In this document: piece by piece, positions 181 to 17,637 of the stretch
Position numbering within the stretch: the first letter of the stretch is position 1
Layout of the letters: the number at the start of each line of letters is the position of its first letter
IMG/VR virus record: IMGVR_UViG_3300043570_002639
Coordinates: 1 to 20,193 of that record
Origin: a virus
DNA length: 20,193 nt
Reading direction: 5' to 3' (one strand)
The notes under the pieces: model-generated
The model's database searches: none
What the model was told of the DNA's origin: nothing
What the model saw: only the letters and a program-made list of their open reading frames with translations
Program-made: the position numbers and the translations under genes

Positions 181-1386
181 ATGAATACAAAATTACCAAA
201 ATTATGCGAAGGTTGTGGCTGCGATCAACAAGAAAAGTTATCTAAACTTAAGAGTCAAATAAAAGCCAAGTATCTTGGTAGTGTTGATTCTGAAGAACAA
301 TCAAATACTCCTGTTACCGAATACGTAAATTCTATTATTGATGTAAATTTATCCAGTTTGGTTGGAAAAAAGGCATTAATAGAGTCTAATGATGGTATAT
401 TTTTTGGTACTTTTGGTTTCTTTAAAGATAAAATGGCTCTATATGAAGGAGATTTTGTTAAAAAGACCTTTATTTCTGAAAATATAATTAAATTTATTTG
501 TGAAGGTAGTAAGTTTGTTAAGAGAGATGTTGGAAGTGTGATTTCCACTAAAAATGACAAAAATCCTCATGACGAAAAGAAAAGAAAACATGACCATACC
601 ATTAAAGATAATAGCCGTGGTGAATTGATTCATGAAGAAATTCATAAGCGTGGAGACAATTTTGTTGTTACTACAAAAGGTGGTGAGCGAGTATTAGGCA
701 CACATCCAACTAAAGAAAAGGCACTAAAACAATTAGCTGCTGTTGAAATTAGCAAGCGTAGTGTAAATGAAGATTTTGCTGTTTTACTTCGAGATCGTTT
801 GAAATCTAAGTTTTTTGGTCAGCTTCAAGAAGAAGTAGTAAACCAAGAAAATGAATTTACTATGACGGAAGCAGAAATAGCAAAACGAGATAGAATGGCA
901 GATGCCATGATGAATAGTTCAAATTTTAATCCAAAGTTAAAGGGTAAAGATACCAAGGAAAATGCTGCTCATCGTATTGCCACATTTAAAGTGATGGGTG
1001 GTGGTAGAAAAGATAGTGGTTATGAACCAGGTTTATTCTCTGGCGGAAGAGATGAAAGTGCTCCTAAACGAACTAGAAGCCAAAGGCGTGATGATGCTCG
1101 TATAATAATGGGCGACAAGTCTCAAGAGAAATCTGATAAAAAGGTTTTAAAGTCTACTCGAAAGAAAATTCCAAACACTAACCGAACAACTGGTCTTTCT
1201 GGATCTAGCAAGAATGTTCCCAAGAATCGTCGAAAAGCAGCAAAGCAAAAGGCTAGTCGCAAGACAGTTACTGACCGCAAAACCTTTGCCAACCTTAAAG
1301 GCTCAGATAAATTATCTTTAGCTGCGTATCGAAAGAGGCGACTTGCCAGGAATTTGAAATCTAGTAGATATTCTGTCAGTAAATAA
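181..1386 (+). CDS. Basic phage protein with possible capsid-targeting N-terminus; putative internal virion protein
   Basis: This 401-residue protein has no recognised enzymatic domain. The N-terminus MNTKLPKLCEGCGC has L8-C9-E10 followed by G11, matching the L/I-x-E cut consensus of the T4 prohead protease gp21 in the same register as T4 internal proteins. Around residues 158-195 is a segment (FVVTTKGGERVLGTHPTKEK, then AL-rich helix) like a short module common in phage proteins: a two-strand G-rich turn and a helix ending in ISKR. Residues 228-275 (EAEIAKRDRMADAMM onward) resemble another T4-like phage segment. The last 110 residues are very rich in Lys and Arg, as expected for a nucleic-acid-binding internal protein. 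The ATG at 181 lacks a Shine-Dalgarno site and follows a TAAATA box by 5 bases. Virion role is inferred; the ORF itself is clear. Confidence 0.75.
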   Translation: MNTKLPKLCEGCGCDQQEKLSKLKSQIKAKYLGSVDSEEQSNTPVTEYVNSIIDVNLSSLVGKKALIESNDGIFFGTFGFFKDKMALYEGDFVKKTFISENIIKFICEGSKFVKRDVGSVISTKNDKNPHDEKKRKHDHTIKDNSRGELIHEEIHKRGDNFVVTTKGGERVLGTHPTKEKALKQLAAVEISKRSVNEDFAVLLRDRLKSKFFGQLQEEVVNQENEFTMTEAEIAKRDRMADAMMNSSNFNPKLKGKDTKENAAHRIATFKVMGGGRKDSGYEPGLFSGGRDESAPKRTRSQRRDDARIIMGDKSQEKSDKKVLKSTRKKIPNTNRTTGLSGSSKNVPKNRRKAAKQKASRKTVTDRKTFANLKGSDKLSLAAYRKRRLARNLKSSRYSVSK

Positions 1387-1391
1387 TTCCG

Positions 1392-1399
1392 TATAAATA
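1392..1399 (+). promoter_or_regulatory. T4-late-type promoter box TATAAATA
   Basis: Exact match to the T4 late consensus, 14 bases before the ATG at 1414. A strong Shine-Dalgarno sequence AAAGGAGA (1401-1408) lies between. By T4 spacing the transcript would start near 1405, inside that Shine-Dalgarno site, so either the start point differs slightly or the leader is very short. Confidence 0.6.
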
Positions 1400-1413
1400 C
1401 AAAGGAGACAAAA

Positions 1414-1980
1414 ATGAAAAAGTACAAAGATTTACGATTACAATTAAACGAAGGCGAAAATACCGAAGGCGGAGCTCTTGGCGGATACCCAGCACAGAGT
1501 GTTCGATCTGCGACATCTGATTACGGCGTTCACCGCATTGAAAGCACAGAACAAGTTCAAAGAATTCAGGCTTTCTTGAGCGCATTCACTGGTCGTGAGT
1601 ACCTGGAGCCTCGTGCAGCTTTGTCTTTGATGCGAGTCAAGATCAACTTGGCTGGTTTAGACTTTGAGTTTAACGGTAAGACTCCAATCAATGTTGGCGT
1701 TGTGAACTACCTGAAGCTGACTCGCTTTGGTGGCACGTTTGGTACCACACCAACACACAATCTGATGAAGGACGGCTTCAAGGTAACCGATGGCGTGGAA
1801 GATACGCTTGACGGAGACCATTTGGCTATTGCTCTTCGTGTAGACGAAGCACCGTCTGGACTGTACAAGATGACTGCTAGTGTTATGCGATACTCTGGAG
1901 ACAGTCCAGAACAAGGTCAACGCACTCCTGCTGCTATTGATACTCCTTTGGATGCTTCTGGACTTAATAACCAAAAATAA
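1414..1980 (+). CDS. Probable virion structural protein of unknown fold
   Basis: The 188-residue product has no family I can name with confidence. It has the strongest ribosome site of the rightward block (AAAGGAGA, six bases from ATG) and an exact TATAAATA box just upstream, which suggests high late expression as for a virion component. After a charged N-terminus the protein looks beta-rich (MRVKINLAGLDFEF at about 71-84, TRFGGTFGTT at 104-113) with a disordered C-terminal tail. Residues 11-13 are L-N-E followed by G, a possible gp21-type cut three residues later than in the neighbouring basic proteins. Codons are richer in G and C than those of the upstream gene. The next gene starts three bases after the stop. 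A capsid, decoration or tail component is plausible but not shown. Confidence 0.75.
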   Translation: MKKYKDLRLQLNEGENTEGGALGGYPAQSVRSATSDYGVHRIESTEQVQRIQAFLSAFTGREYLEPRAALSLMRVKINLAGLDFEFNGKTPINVGVVNYLKLTRFGGTFGTTPTHNLMKDGFKVTDGVEDTLDGDHLAIALRVDEAPSGLYKMTASVMRYSGDSPEQGQRTPAAIDTPLDASGLNNQK

Positions 1981-1983
1981 ATT

Positions 1984-2364
1984 ATGCTTTATGAACCTCT
2001 GAGTGAAGACAATTTTTTGTTGTATTCGATTAAAATGTATGATAATCCCAATTGTATTGGTATTTCAGAGTTTTATGACGATCTCAACAGAATCAAGTAC
2101 ATTAAGAGGTTGTTCAACAAGTATGATTTAAAGAAGACACTCAAGGATCGTTTACTGCTTAATCACATAATGATACTTAATAATGTGTTTGGAGTTGAAG
2201 CTTGCTCACGAATTCTTTTCTTTAAGACTGAACCCAGATATCATTCCTACCTAAAAACATTTCTATACTTTCTTCAAATCCTACCTAAAAGAGTGCCAGA
2301 AGTTAAATTAGAGGATATTCCGTTAGATCACCGAATAATGAAAGTGTTAAAAGAAATCACATGA
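1984..2364 (+). CDS. Conserved T4-like marine phage protein of unknown function
   Basis: This 126-residue protein is mostly helical, with the pattern EFYDDLNRIKYIKRLFNKY (residues 29-47), then LLLNHIMILNNVFGVEA (58-74) and a C-terminal LFFKTEPRYHSYLKTFLYFL stretch. I recognise this as a small protein seen repeatedly in uncultured marine T4-like phages (a DUF7207-like family, from memory), usually near structural genes; no biochemical role is known to me. There is no Shine-Dalgarno site and the ATG lies three bases after the upstream stop, so translation probably depends on coupling. Its TGA overlaps the next ATG (ATGA at 2361-2364). It also has L6-S7-E8, but lacks the rest of the targeting-peptide pattern and I treat that as chance. 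Confidence 0.75.
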   Translation: MLYEPLSEDNFLLYSIKMYDNPNCIGISEFYDDLNRIKYIKRLFNKYDLKKTLKDRLLLNHIMILNNVFGVEACSRILFFKTEPRYHSYLKTFLYFLQILPKRVPEVKLEDIPLDHRIMKVLKEIT

Positions 2365-2924
2365 ATGCAAGTAAACTCTCTCAAATAATTACCAGCTTTA
2401 CTCTGTATAAGTTTGTGGATGCCCTGACTACTCCATTCACCAGACTTGGTGCCTACAGTCTAGGCATTATTGATGCGAATGGCAGGCAACTAAAAGATCT
2501 TGGCAGTTTAACACCAAGAGAACTGCAACAGTTTACTCCGTTTGATCAGTTGATTGTGGCTTTAAAAAGAATTATTGTGAAAGTTCCTGATCCTTATGTT
2601 CGTGCTCATCTTACCAATGTGCCTGCCGCTCTTGCCCTGTTCACAGAAGAATGTGTGAAGGCTGGTGGTAATGGTGCCATGTTCCTGAAGGGAGCAATGC
2701 GTGAACTAGAGGCTTGTGGTGTTTTACAGGAAGACGGAGAAGCAGCCGTTGCTGCTCCTATTGCCAACAGCGTAGCCGCAGGTGGCATAGCTGGAATGAA
2801 GCCTGATGACATTGGAGTGCCTGTTTCCGTTCAAAAACGCATACAACAGAGTGCAGGACGACATATGGCACGTAGAAAGAAGAATAGCCTAAATACTACA
2901 GGAGAATCAAATGATACCAACTGA
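2361..2924 (+). CDS. Conserved T4-like phage hypothetical protein
   Basis: The 187-residue product opens with a helical segment (FTLYKFVDALTTPFTRLGAY) followed by LGIIDANGRQLKDL and a T-rich linker before a second helical part (FDQLIVALKRIIVKVPDPY). That N-terminal arrangement, a helix ending in LTTPFxxxxAYxLGIID, recurs in small proteins of marine T4-like phages, sometimes near head or scaffold genes; I cannot assign a role. An Ala/Gly-rich stretch (about 128-146) and a basic C-terminus with HMARRKK follow. The gene starts inside the stop of the previous gene (ATGA) and its last 14 bases overlap the next gene, so the three appear co-translated. Confidence 0.7.
   Translation: MNASKLSQIITSFTLYKFVDALTTPFTRLGAYSLGIIDANGRQLKDLGSLTPRELQQFTPFDQLIVALKRIIVKVPDPYVRAHLTNVPAALALFTEECVKAGGNGAMFLKGAMRELEACGVLQEDGEAAVAAPIANSVAAGGIAGMKPDDIGVPVSVQKRIQQSAGRHMARRKKNSLNTTGESNDTN
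2889..2896 (+). promoter_or_regulatory. T4-late-type promoter box CTAAATAC
   Basis: Located inside the 3' end of the upstream gene, 15 bases between the TAAATA core and the ATG at 2911, with the Shine-Dalgarno AGGAG at 2900-2904 in between. It would give the membrane-protein gene its own late start in addition to readthrough. Confidence 0.5.
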
Positions 2925-3348
2925 ACTAATTTCACTCATTGGTGGCGGATTCACTGGATTCCTTTTTCGTTACATGGCTCAGAAGAGTCAGGACCAAAAA
3001 GAGATGTTTAACCAACTCATGGCTGCTAACAAGCAGACCACCGAGAATCAAGATAAAGCCGTGCAGCGTGTCTCAGTGGATGCTGGACGTGTTGTGCGTC
3101 AAGTTATTGTGTTGGGAGTTCTGTTTGCCACACTACTTGCTCCGTTCATACTGCCGTTCTTTGGCACACCAACATTTGTGGAAGTTGATGCAACCACACC
3201 AGAGGGACTGTTTGGTTTGATTCCTTCTTCTACCAGAAAATTCTTTGTGGAAATCAATGGGTATTTGTTTACTAGTGAAAATCGTCAGATCTTACTTTCA
3301 ATCGTAGGATTCTATTTTGGATCAGCTGCAGCCAGCAATAAATCTTAA
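2911..3348 (+). CDS. Three-helix membrane protein, holin candidate
   Basis: The 145-residue protein has three hydrophobic segments: residues about 4-22 (ISLIGGGFTGFLF), 64-85 (QVIVLGVLFATLLAPFILPF) and 124-141 (QILLSIVGFYFGSAA). A Gln/Lys-rich, probably helical stretch lies between the first two. This size and topology match the small three-helix holin-type proteins common in marine phage genomes; holins open the inner membrane at the end of infection. It is unrelated in layout to the single-helix T4 holin gpT. The gene has its own late box and AGGAG ribosome site. The following gene encodes a tiny lipoprotein with a membrane helix, which supports a lysis context, though no endolysin is present in this window. 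Alternative: a virion or host-membrane protein unrelated to lysis. Confidence 0.6.
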   Translation: MIPTELISLIGGGFTGFLFRYMAQKSQDQKEMFNQLMAANKQTTENQDKAVQRVSVDAGRVVRQVIVLGVLFATLLAPFILPFFGTPTFVEVDATTPEGLFGLIPSSTRKFFVEINGYLFTSENRQILLSIVGFYFGSAAASNKS

Positions 3349-3357
3349 GGATATTAT

Positions 3358-3600
3358 ATGAAATATATTACAAAAGCTCGTTTAGTATTGGCGTTGACAA
3401 TTTTTTGTTTTTTTACTGCTTGCAACACAACTCCTGTGATCATTCCTGATATTTCCACCAATGCGGCACAACACGCAGATAATATTTCTCAACGAAATGG
3501 TTGGGGATGGATTTTGTGGTATCTTCCTGTGCTGTTCTTGGCAGTAGCATGGGGATGGACTGTACTGGTTAAACGAAAAAGAATTAATGCAGATTCATGA
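3358..3600 (+). CDS. Small lipoprotein with C-terminal membrane helix (spanin-like topology)
   Basis: The 80-residue protein has a signal peptide with a basic start (KYITKAR), a hydrophobic core (LVLALTIFCFF) and a lipobox-like FTAC, predicting cleavage before C22 and lipidation. The mature part has about 27 polar residues, then one membrane helix (about 50-71, WILWYLPVLFLAVAWGWTVL) and a basic KRKR end that should stay in the cytoplasm. A lipid anchor at one end and a membrane helix at the other is the layout of unimolecular spanins such as T1 gp11, which fuse inner and outer membranes during lysis. This protein is much shorter than that example. An AAGGA ribosome site (3347-3351) precedes the ATG by six bases. 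The stop overlaps the next ATG. Confidence 0.6.
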   Translation: MKYITKARLVLALTIFCFFTACNTTPVIIPDISTNAAQHADNISQRNGWGWILWYLPVLFLAVAWGWTVLVKRKRINADS

Positions 3601-3971
3601 AATCTTTTCTAGAATATCTAACCGAAGAAAAGGATGCTTGTTACCGAAAGGTAATGGCATCTTACGGTAAATGGAGTGCCAGAGCAGCACAAGCCACTGC
3701 TAAGTGTCGCAAATCAAAGGGTGATGTTCGCAAAACTAAAAGTGGAGCAAACCTTAAACGATGGGGAGCAGAAAAGTGGAAAGACACTAAATCGGGTAAA
3801 GCTTGCGGTGCGGGTGGAAAAAACGAGTACTGCAGACCAACTAAACGAGTGAGTTCTAGTACTCCAAAGACAACAGGAGAGATGAGTGCTGCCGAACTAA
3901 AAAGTAAGAAGGCAGAAAAGTCACGAGTAGGAATGAATGGAGCATTTGGAAACAAGGTAACACCAGCATGA
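3597..3971 (+). CDS. Basic Cys-containing phage protein with capsid-targeting-like N-terminus (DUF5872-like)
   Basis: This 124-residue, very Lys/Arg-rich protein begins MKSFLEYLTEE, close in pattern and register to the MKTYQEFIAE targeting peptide of T4 internal proteins, with L8-T9-E10 as a possible prohead-protease cut. Next is a segment with two cysteines (ACYRKVMASYGKW and ATAKCRKS, about residues 14-40) typical of small modules in marine T4-like phage proteins. Residues about 57-95 contain WGAEKWKDTKSG, CGAGG, YCRPTKRVS and STPKT, which I associate with the DUF5872 family; no function is established. The ATG overlaps the upstream stop (ATGA) and the gene's own stop overlaps the following ATG. 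The basic charge and N-terminus suggest an internal head protein. That role is inferred. Confidence 0.7.
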   Translation: MKSFLEYLTEEKDACYRKVMASYGKWSARAAQATAKCRKSKGDVRKTKSGANLKRWGAEKWKDTKSGKACGAGGKNEYCRPTKRVSSSTPKTTGEMSAAELKSKKAEKSRVGMNGAFGNKVTPA

Positions 3972-4342
3972 AATCATTTCGAGAATATCTAACCGAAGCT
4001 TGTTGGAGTGGATATAAGGCTGTAGGCAAAAAACGAAAAGGTAAACGTCAAGTTCCTAACTGTGTGCCTGTAAACGAAACTGCGGCATGGACACGCAAAG
4101 AAGGAAAGAATCCTACAGGTGGTCTGAATGCAGCGGGTGTTGCTTCTTATAGAAAAGAAAATCCTGGAAGTAAATTAAAGATGGCAGTAACAACACCTCC
4201 TTCAAAATTAAAAAAAGGATCTAAAGCAGCAAAAAGAAGAAAATCTTTTTGTGCCAGAATGGGCGGAATGCCTGGAGCCATGAAAAAACCAAATGGAGAG
4301 CCTACTCGTAAAGCCCTGGCTCTTCGCAAGTGGAATTGCTAA
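3968..4342 (+). CDS. Basic phage protein with capsid-targeting-like N-terminus (DUF6321-like)
   Basis: The 124-residue product begins MKSFREYLTEA: L8-T9-E10 then A11, the closest match in the window to the T4 internal-protein processing site. It continues with a CWSGYKAVGKKRKGKRQVP module ending NCVPV, frequent in phage structural and unknown proteins. It then has a domain running from AAWTRKEGKNPTGGLN (about 37) through KRRKSFCARMGGM to the terminal ALRKWNC; I associate this with the DUF6321 family, whose function is unknown. Its composition is strongly basic. The gene is joined by ATGA to the previous one, with which it shares the N-terminal ten-residue motif but not the rest, so the two look like different cargo domains on a common leader. 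The stop is followed by a late box. Confidence 0.7.
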   Translation: MKSFREYLTEACWSGYKAVGKKRKGKRQVPNCVPVNETAAWTRKEGKNPTGGLNAAGVASYRKENPGSKLKMAVTTPPSKLKKGSKAAKRRKSFCARMGGMPGAMKKPNGEPTRKALALRKWNC

Positions 4343-4346
4343 AACA

Positions 4347-4354
4347 CTAAATAC
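4347..4354 (+). promoter_or_regulatory. T4-late-type promoter box CTAAATAC
   Basis: Lies in the 32-base gap between two genes. The TAAATA core ends 21 bases before the ATG at 4375, and the Shine-Dalgarno AAAGGAA (4364-4370) lies between, leaving room for a normal short leader from about 4359. Confidence 0.55.
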
Positions 4355-4374
4355 AGTATAACCAAAGGAATAAA

Positions 4375-4965
4375 ATGAACTCAATGTTTCTATCTTTTTT
4401 AAAGAGTATGCAAACCAAAAGCCAAGACGCACAGAACCCAGGACTCTGGGTGAACGGCAATCGTATGCCTATGCAAGAAGGAAAAGGCAATATGGATAAG
4501 GAAAAGGTAATAGATCCAATGGGTACTGGACTAGATGGTTTAGCTGCATCTACTACAGGAGCAGCAGCCAGATCAATCAACCCATGGTCAAAAGTGTCCA
4601 GCAACGCTACAACACGACAAGTTTGGAATGCTAATTCTAGTAATAGAAATCCAGCTAGAGTAAATGTTGAAAACTTATACAGAGAAGATGCTAGAATGAA
4701 TCCATCAGGTAGTCCTAATATTTATAATCCATTAACTAATGTGGCAGATGCAGAAATAGAACTTATGGCTAGGCAAATTACAAGAGGTAATCTTGGTAGT
4801 GGCGGTGGTAGAGCTCCTGGAGCAATGCAGCCTGAACCGATGCAAGAAAACACAAATAGATCTATGTTCTTGACACATCTTCAGGGTATGCAAACCAAGA
4901 GCCAAGGGGCACAAAACCCAGGTCTTTGGGTGAACGGCAATCGTAAGATCAACCCAAACTTTTAA
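4375..4965 (+). CDS. Unrecognised protein with a repeated terminal peptide
   Basis: I do not recognise this 196-residue protein. Its most striking property is that residues 3-30 are repeated near the C-terminus at 163-190 with 23 of 28 identical, both copies containing MQTKSQxAQNPGLWVNGNR. The first copy is followed by PMQEG and the second is preceded by PMQEN. The middle is low in hydrophobic residues and rich in Asn, Ala, Gly and Arg, so it may be mostly disordered. The gene has its own late box and a good AAAGGAA ribosome site. Its 3' end overlaps the convergent resolvase gene by 17 bases, and a strong hairpin 40 bases downstream can end its transcript. A virion-associated protein is plausible from context only. 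Confidence 0.65.
   Translation: MNSMFLSFLKSMQTKSQDAQNPGLWVNGNRMPMQEGKGNMDKEKVIDPMGTGLDGLAASTTGAAARSINPWSKVSSNATTRQVWNANSSNRNPARVNVENLYREDARMNPSGSPNIYNPLTNVADAEIELMARQITRGNLGSGGGRAPGAMQPEPMQENTNRSMFLTHLQGMQTKSQGAQNPGLWVNGNRKINPNF
4381..4464 (+). repeat. Direct repeat copy 1 (in-gene)
   Basis: An 84-base stretch that recurs at 4861-4944, exactly 480 bases (160 codons) later in the same frame. The last 59 bases differ at six positions, and the first 25 are more diverged. It encodes the N-terminal copy of the MQTKSQ...LWVNGNR peptide. Confidence 0.85.
4861..4944 (+). repeat. Direct repeat copy 2 (in-gene)
   Basis: C-terminal partner of the repeat at 4381-4464, with 66 of 84 bases identical. Many of the differences in the conserved part change the encoded residue little, which suggests the peptide itself is kept by selection. 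Confidence 0.85.
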
Positions 4966-5506
4966 GTTTCGTATACAGACTCTTACAAATATAATAAGAA
5001 TCGACGATGTCGGAAACTGGGTTTCCGACATCTTTCTTGTCTGGACTAATAGTTCCCTTCAGATCTATTCCAGTCTCCATTAGAAATGCCTGATACATCT
5101 CTTCTTTGTTTGCGTTGCCCTTGCCAGCAGCTTGTTTTTTTACCGCACTCGGAGGAATCACTTCTACTGGAATACTTAGTTGATGCAGACGATATTTGAG
5201 AACGCCAGTGTTCTCTGCAATATGAAACACTTTACCCTTTGCGCCGTATGCATACCCTTCCAGGGCTATCTGGTCGCATCCTATGCACATCTGTAGTGCC
5301 CAGTCTGATATGCTTTCGAATCTGGCAAAATCAGAGTTCCAGTCATCAAACGGATCTCCACGAATATTGGTCAGGAATAATTTTTGATTTTTCTTTACAT
5401 CACTCAGAAAGTAGAATGAACATCTCTGAAACTTGAAAGGCTCTGTGGAGTTAAACACACAGATGCTTGGACTCGTCATGGAATAATCTATACCTGCGAT
5501 AATCAC
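4949..5506 (-). CDS. RuvC-like Holliday junction resolvase
   Basis: The 185-residue protein has the RNase H-fold nuclease pattern of RuvC: a first strand AGIDYSMTS with D7, the strand ALEGYAYG with E83, the PSAVKKQAAGKGNANKEEM segment (119-137), and D166 and D169 with the D-x-x-D spacing of the last two acidic residues of E. coli RuvC. Such enzymes cut four-way junctions; in T4 the unrelated gp49 does this late, to clear DNA for packaging. The start must be GTG at 5504-5506, because the first internal ATG would remove D7. It has no Shine-Dalgarno site and a TAAATA box five bases upstream, so its message may be leaderless. The gene stands alone on this strand among rightward genes. Codons 159-167 form a perfect hairpin. 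Confidence 0.85.
   Translation of the reverse strand: MIIAGIDYSMTSPSICVFNSTEPFKFQRCSFYFLSDVKKNQKLFLTNIRGDPFDDWNSDFARFESISDWALQMCIGCDQIALEGYAYGAKGKVFHIAENTGVLKYRLHQLSIPVEVIPPSAVKKQAAGKGNANKEEMYQAFLMETGIDLKGTISPDKKDVGNPVSDIVDSYYICKSLYTKLKSLG
5006..5040 (+). terminator. Intrinsic terminator-like hairpin inside the opposing resolvase gene
   Basis: The inverted repeat GATGTCGGAAAC (5006-5017), loop TGG, GTTTCCGACATC (5021-5032) is a perfect 12-bp stem with a 3-base loop, followed on the + strand by TTTCTTGT. It lies 40 bases past the stop of the rightward gene ending at 4965, so it fits termination of rightward late transcription. No T-run follows it on the minus strand. Confidence 0.7.
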
Positions 5507-5510
5507 AAAG

Positions 5511-5518
5511 GTATTTAG
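5511..5518 (-). promoter_or_regulatory. T4-late-type promoter box CTAAATAC for the resolvase, leaderless arrangement
   Basis: Read on the minus strand, CTAAATACCTTT immediately precedes the GTG start, identical to the 12 bases before the ATG at 181. By T4 spacing +1 is the G of GTG. Confidence 0.5.
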
Positions 5519-5521
5519 GAG

Positions 5522-5529
5522 TATAAATA
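5522..5529 (+). promoter_or_regulatory. T4-late-type promoter box TATAAATA, near-leaderless arrangement
   Basis: Exact TATAAATA ending six bases before the ATG at 5536, so +1 would be one base before the start codon. AGGAG at 5518-5522 is upstream of or within the box and 13 or more bases from the ATG; it would not be transcribed from this promoter. It is divergent from the resolvase box within a 29-base gap. Confidence 0.6.
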
Positions 5530-5535
5530 GGGTAT

Positions 5536-6507
5536 ATGAAAAGCTTTATTGAATTTTTAATGGAAGAAGTGGTAGACTTTTATCATCGAACAGACCCAAC
5601 GAGTGCTTTAAATATTCAAAAAAATGGTGTTAGAGCTTCAGGATTAAGTGTTTTTTTAAATCCAAAACAAGCAGCTGATTATGAAGGAGCAAAATCTAAT
5701 GATTTTGTTCCTAAAGGATCACCAACAATAACAGGAAAAGTTTCGACTAGTCAAATGATACCTGATATGGAAATGCACCCAGGAGCATTTAATAAGGTGT
5801 ACGCAAACATATCTAAAATGGATAGACCGCCATCGTTAAGTAGGACTTCACAAACAGCAAGCGGAAATTTTCAATATAATATACCTGGAATAAGACGTAA
5901 CCCAGAAACAGGTAAAGTAGAGCCTGGTTACAGTATAGTATATTCTAGTGATGGTCAAACATATCGTAAAGCTCACGAGACAGACCTTAATGATTCACGC
6001 CAGCATCCATATATTGATACTCGTTCTCAAACTCTAGTTGGTCCAAATGAAACAAGAGTATTACCTGTAGATAAACCAATAAAAATTGGTGGTCCTACAA
6101 ATCAAGGTGAGCATGGTTTTAAAGAAGCAGGAGATCTAGATAAAATTACTTCTAAATCTGGTCCAGAATCAAAAAAGAAAATAACAAAAGAATTTTTACA
6201 ATCGCCAGCACCAAATAAAGCATTGAGAACTACAAGTAATGTACAAGATATAAAAATAGTTTCACCAGAATCTATTCCACATAAACCTGGACTTGCTGGA
6301 AAACTTGGAATTGCTGGAGCAGCTTTAGGACTAGCCACAGGAGCTAGTGCAGCGGATTTAGTGCATGGTCTAAATCCTTTAAGTGTTCTTGATGGTGGTT
6401 CTTTGGGTACAGATGATGTGTTAAAGAACGATGAAGATAAGGAATCTGATTATGATCCTGCTCGTTATTTAAAACCCAAACACTCTAGCCAGAATAATAC
6501 CAAGTAA
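5536..6507 (+). CDS. Putative internal virion protein with ADP-ribosyltransferase-like N-terminal domain
   Basis: This 323-residue protein begins MKSFIEFLMEE, matching the leader of the basic proteins upstream (possible cut after L8-M9-E10). Directly after it comes VDFYHRTDPTSALNIQKNG (residues 13-31) and SGLSVFLNPKQAADYEG (35-51). This order, YHxT, then a helix and Gly, then a short hydrophobic strand and A-x-x-Y, resembles the start of ADP-ribosyltransferase-type folds (H17 and F40 in the places of the His and Tyr/aromatic of the H-Y-E group). A third catalytic acid is not obvious; E78 and E80 are candidates. The middle is polar and probably disordered. Residues about 252-277 form an Ala/Gly-rich hydrophobic helix, and the end is acidic then basic. 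T4 packages the ADP-ribosyltransferase Alt in its head, so the combination is meaningful but inferred. Confidence 0.65.
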   Translation: MKSFIEFLMEEVVDFYHRTDPTSALNIQKNGVRASGLSVFLNPKQAADYEGAKSNDFVPKGSPTITGKVSTSQMIPDMEMHPGAFNKVYANISKMDRPPSLSRTSQTASGNFQYNIPGIRRNPETGKVEPGYSIVYSSDGQTYRKAHETDLNDSRQHPYIDTRSQTLVGPNETRVLPVDKPIKIGGPTNQGEHGFKEAGDLDKITSKSGPESKKKITKEFLQSPAPNKALRTTSNVQDIKIVSPESIPHKPGLAGKLGIAGAALGLATGASAADLVHGLNPLSVLDGGSLGTDDVLKNDEDKESDYDPARYLKPKHSSQNNTK

Positions 6508-6541: not shown

Positions 6542-7306
6542 CTACTCATTGATCTTCTCCATTTGTCTGATCCAAGGAACGTACAGGTCTACTCGTGCAG
6601 CAATCTGATCCACCACAGAGTACTCCATAATCATAAGTGCAGATATTACTCCTGTAAGTTTGCCGCCGTCTTCAAATACTGCACCTCCAGAATCACCAAG
6701 CCAGATGTTTCCTTTGTGTGCAAGAAAACGAATATAGGTTGGTTGCTCCACAATGGTTCCGTAATACCAGAATGTGTGTTCATTACTAATTTTTTTAATT
6801 TTATGAGAGAAGCCAACTGTTGTTAATAGCTCTCCTCGCTTTAAATCTTGAGGATCTGTCTGTAACTCTGCAGGAGTTTCCAGACACGCCTCCTCTAAGA
6901 AAAGTAAACCGATATCATTTTTTCCGTAATTCTCTTCCGAGTAGTCTGGGTGCATTACAGATTTTTTAATTTTGTAGCACTGGTTATTTGTTCGGAAATA
7001 TTCTAATTCAGAATCTTTAATTACGTGTGCTGCAGTAACCACAACTTTAGGAGCAATCAATGTTCCACTACCAATGAACTGACTATTAGTGACTAATATT
7101 TCTCCAACACATTTATAGGTATCTACACAGTCCTCAGTTACTACTGTGAAACCTGGATAATTGTCTACCTCTAGAAAGTCATCAATCACAGTTGCTGGAC
7201 TAGGAAGATTGATTTTAGGTAGTACAGGCTTTGCTTCTTTGTGCTTCAAGAGGAGCACCACGAAGACTACTGCGAAACTTATTGCAGCAAGCCTGAGGTA
7301 TTTCAT
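6542..7306 (-). CDS. Membrane-anchored or exported S1 (chymotrypsin-fold) serine protease
   Basis: The 254-residue protein has a complete S1 triad: H94 in VVVTAAHVI, D131 in KNDIGLLFLE and S206 in GDSGGAVF. An N-terminal hydrophobic helix (about 6-20, LAAISFAVVFVVLLL) followed by KHKEAKP could be a signal anchor or uncleaved signal peptide, placing the protease outside the cytoplasm. C60, C66, C110 and C141 could form disulphides. The residue six before the catalytic Ser, which sets S1-pocket preference in this family, is N200 rather than the Asp of trypsin, so Lys/Arg specificity should not be assumed. It is a lone leftward gene between two rightward virion-type genes, with no clear ribosome site, which gives it the look of an independently acquired cargo gene. 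Its substrate is unknown. It is distinct from a prohead protease, which is not of this fold. Confidence 0.85.
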   Translation of the reverse strand: MKYLRLAAISFAVVFVVLLLKHKEAKPVLPKINLPSPATVIDDFLEVDNYPGFTVVTEDCVDTYKCVGEILVTNSQFIGSGTLIAPKVVVTAAHVIKDSELEYFRTNNQCYKIKKSVMHPDYSEENYGKNDIGLLFLEEACLETPAELQTDPQDLKRGELLTTVGFSHKIKKISNEHTFWYYGTIVEQPTYIRFLAHKGNIWLGDSGGAVFEDGGKLTGVISALMIMEYSVVDQIAARVDLYVPWIRQMEKINE

Positions 7307-7369: not shown

Positions 7370-8647
7370 ATGCAAAAACCAGTAAACAGTGAAATTGATT
7401 TGATCAGAGCGATTTATACCAGAAGTAACGATTTATTGCTAGAGGCTAAGGCTAAGAAGTTGACTCCTAAAGAACCTGATTTGTATAGTGGAGTTGCTGC
7501 GCCTGTTGCGCCTGTGGTTGCTGCGCCTGCGCCTGCTGTTGCATCTAAGACTACCAAAAGTAAGTCTAAATCTACAGCTAAAGCCAAACCTGCAGTTTCT
7601 GAGCCAATGACAGACACAACTACTGAGAGAGTAAATATCGATCCTATGACTAAAAAACAAGGAAATGCCGTATTTGCCAAACCAAAGGCATCAGTTTCTC
7701 CTGCTATCTCCTCAATTCCGATGAGTTCAACTATTTCTACTACTTCAACAAAATATGGCGATTCAAATGTGGCAACACCAGGGTCTTCAAATCCTAAAGA
7801 TTTGAATAAAGATGGATCTGTTACTCCAACAGAAATGAAAGTAGTGCCATCACAAGCTTATATGATTGGTCAAGGATTAGGTTTACTTGGTCGCACAGTA
7901 AAAAATGCTGTTAATAGTCCAAAGGTAATATCTGGTGTTCTTGGTGCTGGCATATTAGCTGCAGGTATTTTGGGCAGAAATATTGGCATGAATCAGCAAA
8001 TGCCAGCTAATAAATCAGTTACTCCAATTACTGCACAATCGGATACACCGCCTACTAGTTCATCCTTTGAAGCTCCACCAGATCCAGGACAACGTAAATG
8101 GACTCCGTATAATTATTTCACAGATCCAAAAAGAGTTGCTCCTATTAACGAACAACAAGAAATTACTGAATATTATCGCCAAGTATTGGCACAGAAATTA
8201 ATGGAACAAGAACACTGGGGTATGGATAAAGTTAATCGTGCAATACAAGCAGGCGAGATTGATCCTACCTCATATGCTTCAGGCAGAAAAGGCATGGAAC
8301 ATATGTATTCGGCACTTGAAGGCGGAACCATAAGTGCACCCGAAGGCAAAGAGAAAGGTGGCGGTCAAAGAAAAGATGTAACTCTTGATACCACAGCAAA
8401 AATTAATGTACCTGCTGGTCAAAAAATATTTCCAAATAGTCGTTCAGCACAAGCAAGTCTTCACATGATTATGAGAAGTATGGGAAATATTCATAGTTCA
8501 CAACCTTCAGTTGGTGGTGAAAAATTCCATCCTGCTCTTGCAGGAACAGTTCCTCATGACCCAAACACTCATGGTGCTCTGAATCAATTGGATCCGTCAA
8601 CAATTGCTCATACTCAAAATCTCAAAAAAACTTGGAAAGAACAATAA
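7370..8647 (+). CDS. Large low-complexity virion-type protein with an EF-hand-like loop
   Basis: I do not recognise the 425-residue protein as a whole. Its N-terminal helix ends NDLLLEAKAKK (L23-L24-E25 then A26, a possible prohead-protease site but far from the usual position). Residues 42-75 are an Ala/Pro- then Lys/Ser-rich linker. D144 to E155 (DLNKDGSVTPTE) fits the 12-residue calcium-binding EF-hand/dockerin loop, with ligands at 1, 3, 5 and 12. A Gly/Ala-rich hydrophobic segment (about 187-202, ISGVLGAGILAAGILG) may insert in a membrane. The C-terminal 170 residues are polar and helical, then His/Ser/Pro-rich. The architecture (linkers, one membrane-like segment, no enzyme core) would suit an ejected or internal virion protein. 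Its stop is one base from the convergent NrdJ stop. Confidence 0.65.
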   Translation: MQKPVNSEIDLIRAIYTRSNDLLLEAKAKKLTPKEPDLYSGVAAPVAPVVAAPAPAVASKTTKSKSKSTAKAKPAVSEPMTDTTTERVNIDPMTKKQGNAVFAKPKASVSPAISSIPMSSTISTTSTKYGDSNVATPGSSNPKDLNKDGSVTPTEMKVVPSQAYMIGQGLGLLGRTVKNAVNSPKVISGVLGAGILAAGILGRNIGMNQQMPANKSVTPITAQSDTPPTSSSFEAPPDPGQRKWTPYNYFTDPKRVAPINEQQEITEYYRQVLAQKLMEQEHWGMDKVNRAIQAGEIDPTSYASGRKGMEHMYSALEGGTISAPEGKEKGGGQRKDVTLDTTAKINVPAGQKIFPNSRSAQASLHMIMRSMGNIHSSQPSVGGEKFHPALAGTVPHDPNTHGALNQLDPSTIAHTQNLKKTWKEQ

Positions 8648-15063: not shown

Positions 15064-17637
15064 TCATTCGAAACAACTCTCCAAGGTACTAATTTTCTCT
15101 ACACTCCATTGTATCACATCTAGAATCCTTGTCAAGGGATCTTTGAAAGATTTCTCAAATTGTAGGTCTCGATTCACATACTTATCTAGGTGGAGTTCTT
15201 TGGGAATGTGTTGCATAAATGCAATTACTTGTTCTTTTCCGCTCACTATAGAGAACGGATTAGGTTCCTTCAAGTAAATAAATTTAATTTTATCTGCCTC
15301 AGCAATTTTTCTATATTTCTTCTCTAGATTATTCTTTTCCAAATAATCATTAAATAATAGGGATGCCTTCACCGCAATAGGAGTTCCCTTCTTATACACT
15401 GCCGTAGTACATTCGTATCGATCTAGACCAGACACGCTACGAGGAAACGCAATATCCTGTATGGAAGCCTTATTAAATTTATTCCTGAAATCTTCTGCAA
15501 ATTCTTGAACGTCAAATTCCGTCTTATTCATAACAATACTAATAGCAGTCTTCAGTGCTGTACGCACCATTAGTGGTGTAGAACTCCTTGCCGTCTCAAT
15601 ACCAACAATCTTGAGTTCAGGAATCTTTAATAATACTCCGTCTTCGCCCATGATATTGTTCAGCATGTATCGTTTCTTGGCAGTCCAAATACCTTTGGTG
15701 GAAATAGACTCTCGCTTCATGTGCATCTTTTGCTTGTAGGCATTCATGGTATTGGCGAGTTCTTGATACTTGGCTTCAATATAAGGTTCAATCTTGTCTT
15801 CACAAATCTTTTGTATTACTTCAGCAATTCGTTCTTGAGACGGCATCTTGCCACCAAACACCTTCTGGACCACTTTGTCAAGACACAGGTAGATGGAATC
15901 GGTATCTGATGCTGCCACATAGTCTTTTCCTGTGGTACCAACCATTTTGTTGACAAACTCGTTCAGGGCTTTCTCGATCCAACGAATACTTAACTGCCCA
16001 GAAATGGTGATTGCTTCTGCGATATCTAGATCGTAGTAGCGGAACCATCGGTTTCCAATGGCACCGTAAGCGGAATTAAGTTGAATCTTGCGACACAACT
16101 GAAAATTATTATACTTGGAGATCTTGTACTCTAGAAGTTCTCGTTCCTTCTTGGTTGCCGTACTAGGCAGATTTTTAAGTTCTGCCTTGCAGTCCAACAT
16201 CTTTTCCTTGTACATCTTTCGCTCTGAATACATGGTTTCCATCAGTTCAGGAAGAAAGCCTTGCTTCTCTCTTTTGAAATAGATGCCGTTAGAAGTAATG
16301 GCAATGTTATTTTCTTTGGCAAATTTCTGGTGATCTTCTAGACGAATAAAATTTGTTTGTGCATCATAGGATTCTGGGTGCAAAATGTCTTCAGGCTTCA
16401 GGGTATTTCGTTTACCCATCTTGTGCTTGGTTTCTGGAGACATATTATAATTAATAATTAAGTGAGGATACAGACTGTCCAAATCGAATGCCACAACCCA
16501 TTCATGCAAGCCCACCATAGGTTCTTTAACATACGCTCCCTGAAACTGAGTGTCTTGTTCTTCTCCTGAAACCTTTAGAGGAATTGCAATCTTTTTATCG
16601 TTCAGATGGTGGTAGATAATAGAATCCCAAGTCTTAACCTGAGAAAAGATGTCCATGAAATTAACCTTGGCGTTATATGCCATAGCCACAACCAGTTCCA
16701 TTAATTTCAACTTCTTGTCGAGTCGCTGCACCAGCACAACGTCTTGATTGTTGTACTCCATGAACTTCTGCCAGTCCTTGGTGTAGAAGTCCTTGATGCC
16801 GTCATACTCTTCGTAATTAGTCTTGGCTTCTCCCAGTTCCACGCTGGCAATATTGTTCAGGCTGTACGACTCCTGATTCGTGTACGTAAATTTAATGTAC
16901 AACTCATAGTAATCCATGGTGGCAACACCAACCAAGTCGTATACGTTATGATCCTTGCCCTTACGATTAATTATTCGGTCACGCACTTGACGAAACGGAG
17001 ACAATCGCTTTGCAGTCTTTTGGTCTATGATCTTGGCAATGCGACCATAGAGATACGGAATATCAAAGAACCGAATGTTCCAGCCAGTCACAATGTCAGG
17101 ATAATTCTGTTCCCAGTACTCCACAAAACTTTCAAGCATGTCTTGCTCGTCCCCAAACACATGACATTCCACATCAGGAATACTGAAGTCGTGAATGGCA
17201 AACGAATGACGAACACCGTCCATCTCCACGGTAATGGCACTCACTCGCTCATTGTATTCGGTTAGAGAAGGAAATCCGTCTTCACATTCCGTTTCAATGT
17301 CTAGAAATGCAACACGCAGGTCTGCATAATTATAAGGAATTTCTCCAGAGTATCGTTCCGCAATATACTGGGCAACATAATCTTCGTTGCCGTATATCTG
17401 AAAGTTCTCAACATTTTCGTATGTGGTAAACATCTCTCTACAGTCAGACACATCTCCAGGTTTATACGCTTCAAGCGGAATTCCTTCTAGTGTATGCCAC
17501 TCTACGTCACGCTTCAGGGAAGGTGTGAATAGTGTAGGCTGGAATCGAATAGTTCTTGTGCTTCGCTTTCCGTTACAGTAATAGATTTCTTTAATGTCGT
17601 TTCCGACAAGATGAACTGAGGTATAGAATTCACTCAT
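15064..17637 (-). CDS. 43: Family B DNA polymerase (T4 gp43-like) with proofreading exonuclease
   Basis: The 857-residue replicative polymerase is slightly shorter than T4 gp43 (898). The 3'-5' exonuclease motifs are complete: D113/E115 in FLDIETE, GWNIRFFDIPY (185-195) and YNNQDV with D299. Polymerase motifs follow: FDLDSLYP with D385 (motif A), KIQLNSAYGAIGNR (517-530, motif B) and ASDTDSIY with D578 and D580 (motif C). The thumb part includes TKGIWTAKKRY. The C-terminus ends STLESCFE, in the position where related polymerases carry a clamp-binding tail. The ATG overlaps the stop of the upstream DUF1599-like gene (ATGA at 17634-17637), tying it to the sigma70-like promoter ahead of that gene. 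No intein or split is seen. Confidence 0.95.
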   Translation of the reverse strand: MSEFYTSVHLVGNDIKEIYYCNGKRSTRTIRFQPTLFTPSLKRDVEWHTLEGIPLEAYKPGDVSDCREMFTTYENVENFQIYGNEDYVAQYIAERYSGEIPYNYADLRVAFLDIETECEDGFPSLTEYNERVSAITVEMDGVRHSFAIHDFSIPDVECHVFGDEQDMLESFVEYWEQNYPDIVTGWNIRFFDIPYLYGRIAKIIDQKTAKRLSPFRQVRDRIINRKGKDHNVYDLVGVATMDYYELYIKFTYTNQESYSLNNIASVELGEAKTNYEEYDGIKDFYTKDWQKFMEYNNQDVVLVQRLDKKLKLMELVVAMAYNAKVNFMDIFSQVKTWDSIIYHHLNDKKIAIPLKVSGEEQDTQFQGAYVKEPMVGLHEWVVAFDLDSLYPHLIINYNMSPETKHKMGKRNTLKPEDILHPESYDAQTNFIRLEDHQKFAKENNIAITSNGIYFKREKQGFLPELMETMYSERKMYKEKMLDCKAELKNLPSTATKKERELLEYKISKYNNFQLCRKIQLNSAYGAIGNRWFRYYDLDIAEAITISGQLSIRWIEKALNEFVNKMVGTTGKDYVAASDTDSIYLCLDKVVQKVFGGKMPSQERIAEVIQKICEDKIEPYIEAKYQELANTMNAYKQKMHMKRESISTKGIWTAKKRYMLNNIMGEDGVLLKIPELKIVGIETARSSTPLMVRTALKTAISIVMNKTEFDVQEFAEDFRNKFNKASIQDIAFPRSVSGLDRYECTTAVYKKGTPIAVKASLLFNDYLEKNNLEKKYRKIAEADKIKFIYLKEPNPFSIVSGKEQVIAFMQHIPKELHLDKYVNRDLQFEKSFKDPLTRILDVIQWSVEKISTLESCFE

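Follow-up and report, generated by a model that had tools for sequence, protein, structure and literature searches.

A candidate T4-type head-targeting leader on unrelated proteins of an uncultured aquatic phage

Three genes with a common N-terminus

The DNA analyzed here (the window) is the complete virus record IMGVR_UViG_3300043570_002639 of 20,193 bp, a piece of the genome of an uncultured aquatic T4-like phage, and its plus strand carries three genes, starting at 3597, 3968 and 5536, whose products share a ten-residue N-terminal sequence, hereafter the leader. A sequence-only reading of the window had likened these N-termini to the capsid-targeting peptide of the T4 internal proteins, and translation confirmed the start bases and residues it gave. 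The leaders read MKSFLEYLTE (3597..3626), MKSFREYLTE (3968..3997) and MKSFIEFLME (5536..5565). All three match the pattern MKxFxE[YF]LxE, have the aromatic residue F4 together with Y7 or F7, and end in a putative cut tripeptide at residues 8-10 (LTE, LTE and LME, respectively). Cleavage by the prohead protease gp21 is predicted after base 3626, between E10 and E11, a site of the type found in gp23 of relatives; after base 3997, between E10 and A11; and after base 5565, again between E10 and E11.

Behind the leaders, the three bodies are unrelated, as had been claimed (best E 0.07, 1.4 or none). The body of the first protein (3627..3971, plus strand) contains a DUF5872 domain (Pfam PF19197, E=5e-12) and has an isoelectric point (pI) of 10.2; that of the second (3998..4342, plus strand) consists of a CWxGYxxxG..VPNCVP module and a DUF6321 domain (PF19846, E=8e-24) and has a pI of 10.9. 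Both are predicted cargo of the phage head. The third body (5566..6507, plus strand, 313 residues) belongs to no known family, since no phage, Pfam, PHROG or PDB sequence matched it. Near-identical copies alone were found, the body is missing from the close relative G031 described below, and the single-sequence AlphaFold2 prediction for the product had a predicted local distance difference test score (pLDDT) of 39.9; we regard it as predicted, strain-variable cargo. The stretch 'FYHRTDPTSALNIQKNG' resembles an ADP-ribosyltransferase by eye, and as Pfam (E 10), PHROGs and PDB sequences returned nothing, this identity is not claimed. The description of several of these proteins as strongly basic fits the bodies of 3597 and 3968, whereas that of 5536 is only slightly basic (pI 8.8, net charge +3).

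When the whole record was searched as DNA with the above pattern, exactly 3 matches were obtained, and the reversed-pattern control gave 0; the pattern read backwards had no match in any record searched. With one mismatch allowed, the record still gave 3 matches, against a mean of 0.01 in shuffled sequences, and at least 3 were reached in 0 of 100 shuffles. Among the 2.9 million contigs of IMG/VR, the true pattern had at least 120 matches and a codon-shuffled pattern none. Position was examined in 3427 open reading frames (ORFs; 617,000 residues) fetched without use of the leader, that is, through the DUF5872 body, through gp43 or as whole relatives, and the peptide motif followed the start methionine 42 times and occurred elsewhere once. 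The loosest version of the motif also matched gp41 helicase (MKDFEHVLLE), a false positive, and residues 7-8 were therefore required to be [YF][LIVM].

The capsid cut site and the leader in cultured phages

The T4-type DNA polymerase gene gp43 (15064..17637, minus strand; phrog_262, E=1e-292) lies in the window together with UvsX, gp41 and gp61 type genes, all on the minus strand, and because of this context the phage is classed as T4-like. The closest sequenced phages are cyanophages, with 47% identity in gp43. Much closer gp43 proteins are encoded by two contigs, G031 (IMGVR_UViG_3300027754_000045, 153,850 bp; 98% identical) and the 146-kb contig G032 (69%). Since the cluster has the same gene order in the window and in G031, at about 91% DNA identity, G031 was used as a proxy for the rest of the phage genome; the window record ends short of the head genes, and gp21 and gp23 were read in G031 and G032 instead.

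A search for the protease and a comparison of cut sites, which the sequence-only reading had proposed as a check, bore it out: G031 encodes gp21, and its gp23 has a site of the leader type, Y/F-[LI]-x-E before a small residue. The putative cut sites of gp23 are QQYISE/A in G031 and QYLIE/A in G032 (the slash marks the cut), compared with GSFLTE-65/A in T4, and the gp21 proteins of both contigs start MKLITE...FLTE/A. Among 30 contigs with the leader, mostly the long ones contained gp21 (PF03420, in 7) and gp23 (PF07068, in 10), and their gp23 N-termini show KYLTE/S, KYLSE/S, KYLVE/S, KYLQE/S, RYLAE/A, FITE/D and NLWE/A. Therefore, the leader ends in the same type of site as the capsid protein of these phages.

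Ten N-terminal residues are enough for IPIII of T4 to be incorporated; of these, 4 and 7 are important for targeting and 8 and 10 for processing, with cleavage by gp21 after L/I-x-E, and a general role of such sequences in loading diverse proteins has already been proposed for T4-like phages (PMC9026906). The earlier statement that T4 internal proteins I-III start MKTYQEFIAE is right for IPII and IPIII and wrong for IPI, whose propeptide is merely similar (PMC9026906). Over the whole T4 genome, the leader pattern had exactly three matches, all at starts of coding sequences (CDSs), namely ipII, ipIII and 61.1, and both IPII and IPIII have Y4 and F7. Gene 61.1 (NC_000866 18966-19130) encodes a 54-residue protein starting MKTFKEFIKE/D, which makes a good capsid-targeting sequence, and the protein may be an unrecognized small internal protein of T4. 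The leader of the window shares with that of IPII and IPIII (MKTYQEFIAE/A, cut by gp21) its length of ten residues and place at the very N-terminus, the aromatic positions 4 and 7, L/I-x-E at residues 8-10, the unrelated and mostly basic bodies, and a gp21-type protease in the phage group. It differs in favoring MKSFxE[YF]LTE and in standing before at least 61 unrelated bodies, enzyme domains included, and its cleavage and targeting are predicted.

In the cyanophages S-SM1 and Syn9, a pattern fixing residues 1, 2, 4, 7, 8 and 10 gave a single match each, both in cytidylyltransferase-like genes, and the S-SM1 gene is T4-GC190, with the leader MKKFSAFLNE. When S-SM1 virions were purified, T4-GC190 was among the proteins identified in them (PMC3037559). 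Our literature search, which included the leader strings, found no paper linking this presence to the leader, and the published record of T4-GC190 mentions neither leader nor cleavage; the window is without a gene of this type. P-SSM2 had two matches, both at CDS starts: PSSM2_194, the T4-GC190 cytidylyltransferase-like protein (MKSFSQFLTE), and PSSM2_115 (NC_006883 100269-100529), which starts MKSFKQFLEE and is a candidate head cargo. The strict leader had no match in KVP40, S-PM2, HTVC008M, PA5oct or RaK2. An antisense pattern match in HTVC008M was discarded because it lies inside a CDS, and KVP40.0066 (KVP40 39187-39834), another candidate head cargo, starts MKQFCNFLAE.

Other packaged proteins are processed in a comparable way. 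The ADP-ribosyltransferase Alt of T4, which is packaged and injected, has its N-terminus clipped by gp21, and a domain of this activity stands behind the leader elsewhere (below); however, the N-terminus of Alt is a different and shorter one, cut after ITE-6 (PMC5694885), and none of the three leader proteins of the window was identifiable as such an enzyme. The giant phages SPN3US and phiKZ also load their heads with proteins whose N-terminal propeptides are removed by the prohead protease, but these propeptides are far longer, mostly over 100 residues, and have no MKxF leader (PMC5694885).

Bodies behind the leader and their exchange

A collection of 183 leader proteins fell into 61 groups of unrelated bodies, T4 ipII and ipIII included, and the pI exceeded 8 in 39 of the 61. 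Enzyme domains behind the leader include an ADP-ribosyltransferase in L154 (PF03496, E=2e-14) and a zeta-toxin-type kinase with a cytidylyltransferase domain in L007; further bodies, according to Pfam and PHROG, are HAD acid phosphatase, methyltransferase, nucleotidyltransferase, DUF6267, DUF6321, DUF5872 and, weakly, DnaJ. A 2120-residue protein of L011 (2950-9309) starts with the leader MKHFIQYLTE and is a very large candidate head protein.

The DUF5872 body allowed a comparison of proteins with and without the leader, as bodies 68-98% identical to that of the window occur in both forms, the leaderless ones mostly starting at the body itself with MA, MP or VA. T4-like surroundings were found for 12 of the 13 loci with the leader and for 5 of the 67 without (Fisher p ~1e-9), and two of these five, G035 and G034, are contig-end cases. 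Close leaderless homologues occur in contigs that are not T4-like, where the neighbors include terminase and portal families of non-T4 type as well as groEL and primase/helicase genes; phage types were judged from such neighbors. No gp23 was present in the leaderless contigs tested, and a search of them for an HK97-type capsid returned sub-threshold matches only. In three non-T4-like phage contigs (L241, L243 and L268), the leaderless DUF5872 gene lies near a groEL gene.

Between close relatives, bodies are swapped exactly behind the leader. The window gene at 5536 and its counterpart at G034:2774 are about 96% identical over more than 200 bp upstream and share 27 of the 30 leader bases, and identity drops to 14 of 60 directly after codon 11, where an unrelated body begins in G034. 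G031 has no DUF5872 gene; there, the segment corresponding to window 2002-3616 continues at the leader into that corresponding to 3967-4463, so that leader 2 follows the sequence that precedes leader 1 in the window. In the DUF5872 ORF of G035, CTAACCGAAGAA (with LTEE) is retained behind a different upstream sequence, and the same upstream peptide is present in G034. In cyanophages (L394 1810-3345, L395 1085-2854 and S-SM1 98536-100023), the 3597 and 3968 modules are combined in a single long protein, which is encoded near gp16 and contains a worn leader-like SFQEFQEKCW at the position expected for the leader; the separate leader ORFs and this long protein look like alternatives produced by fission or fusion.

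Two further window proteins had been placed in the same class because of a tripeptide near the N-terminus. The protein starting at 181 does not belong there: it begins MNTKLPKLCE, and L8-C9-E10-G11, although literally present, is not conserved, as the region reads NEDCGCEH in G032 against CEGCGCDQ in the window, the conserved part being CGC, and is absent from the G031 relative. The L11-N12-E13-G14 of the protein starting at 1414 is likewise present, and the site reads MKKYKDLRLQLNE followed by A in G031 and MKKFKQLKQQLTE followed by D in G032, and is lost in a third relative, L237. With its MKK[YF] start, this protein may carry a longer leader, tentatively MKKYKDLRLQLNE (1414..1452, plus strand), of the form MKK[YF]..L..QL[NT]E that is kept in G031 and G032. 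Another, longer head leader is perhaps present in the 7370 protein, whose first 20 residues (7370-7450; MQKPVNSEIDLIRAIYTRSN, then DLLLEA) are kept in relatives with a differing middle.

Among the neighboring genes, a trypsin-like protease with a hydrophobic N-terminal segment (6542-7306, minus strand) adjoins the leader gene at 5536. An 80-aa protein (3358-3600) with a lipobox-like start, FFTAC/N, and a membrane segment at its C-terminus follows a membrane protein at 2911 and possibly has a role in lysis. In the product of 4375-4965, the N-terminal stretch MNSMFLSFLKSMQTKSQDAQNPGLWVNGNR recurs near the C-terminus and in further ORFs of relatives and is a repeated module.

Function of the leader

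The leader is very probably a T4-type capsid-targeting sequence that is cut by gp21 after residue 10 and marks cargo of the head. This claim of the sequence-only reading is strongly supported for 3597, 3968 and 5536 by several independent lines, the gp23 site among them; the others are the shared leader itself, its restriction to N-termini, the swaps, the association with T4-like surroundings and the link to the virion-proven T4-GC190. In this phage, a new protein would bind the prohead core through the leader, chiefly through aromatic residues 4 and 7, and then be built into the prohead, where a gp21-type protease would cut after the L/I-x-E at residue 10 and leave mature ends at E11, A11 and E11. 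The mature protein would stay in the head with the DNA and, by analogy with T4 internal proteins and Alt, would most likely be injected into the host, where, again by analogy, a role in take-over or counter-defense is conceivable. Recombination within or just behind the leader would replace the body and keep the address, and the cargo would therefore be a strain-variable set.

Several points weigh against this interpretation. The strict leader is not needed by all T4-like phages, as it is lacking in KVP40, S-PM2 and HTVC008M. The head genes of this phage are known from a relative alone, and the gp23 cut positions were read off the sequence, where the linker aligns poorly. The DUF5872 comparison includes related contigs, so that its loci are not all independent, and its cut-off, a coverage of 8% of the locus by T4-like proteins, was picked after the values had been seen. 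In addition, the PA5oct relative of the largest leader family, a virion protein proven by mass spectrometry, starts MKSFRDYYDAS without L-x-E, and therefore leader and virion location are separable. As the RaK2 relative also has no L-x-E site, this family alone is weakened as proof of head location.

It is unlikely, though well worth weighing, that the leader does target the prohead core but that the proteins, instead of being cargo for the host, belong to the core or scaffold, as gp67 and gp68 do, and are degraded or serve assembly. The commonest leader family (phrog_14802) is encoded between gp16 and gp17 and is head-related, and T4 IPIII itself influences head assembly (PMC9026906). However, L/I-x-E is depleted in the bodies of leader proteins (61 versus 81.1+/-8.4 in shuffles) and absent from the three window bodies, whereas the scaffold gp22 of G031 is enriched (11 versus 5.0+/-2.0) and the replication proteins of the window are neutral (33 versus 32.5). 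The low number in the bodies fits proteins meant to survive the protease, and the bodies, strain-variable and with enzyme domains among them, are unlike essential core parts.

We consider it very improbable that the leader docks proteins to another part of the virion, such as tail, baseplate or portal; S-SM1 proteomics gives no position within the virion for T4-GC190, but the leader has the same form as that of IPII and IPIII and as the gp23 cleavage site. That the leader is a translation start or recombination sequence kept as DNA, with no role for the peptide, is hardly credible. The leader DNA of 3597 and 3968 is identical at 28 of 30 bases, against about 27% on either side, and leaders form recombination junctions; the fixed residues, however, are encoded by many synonymous codons (six for Leu8, both TCN and AGY for Ser3), indicating that the peptide and not the DNA is conserved, and the leader ends in a prohead-protease type of site of the same phages and coincides with proven T4 targeting sequences. 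A chance likeness of three N-termini, which a short motif spotted by eye might suggest, has practically no probability and is already refuted by the shuffles, the codon-shuffled control and the positional bias given above.

Signals of this kind are known from T4. New are the occurrence of the leader across uncultured aquatic T4-like phages, the variety of bodies behind it, the swap joint, the comparison of DUF5872 with and without the leader, and the connection with a cyanophage protein proven to be in virions. Beyond targeting itself, we see about even chances that aquatic T4-like phages preload a large and fast-changing cargo, delivered at infection, through a single head address of 10 residues that is interchangeable and swapped as a gene cassette, so that the injected proteome of uncultured phages would be predictable from N-termini alone. 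The preloaded set would then comprise, with the same even balance of probability, ADP-ribosyltransferases, zeta-type kinases, nucleotidyltransferases, methyltransferases, HAD phosphatases and basic proteins. Phage-injected proteins are normally identified by virion proteomics alone. If the interpretation of the leader as a head address is true, an N-terminal search would list candidate injected proteins in many T4-like phages, cultured or not, and predict the mature end of each to the residue. Dozens of unknown families (DUF5872, DUF6321, DUF6267 and many nameless ones) would gain a probable place, the phage head, and a reason would be offered for the presence of T4-GC190 in the cyanophage virion.

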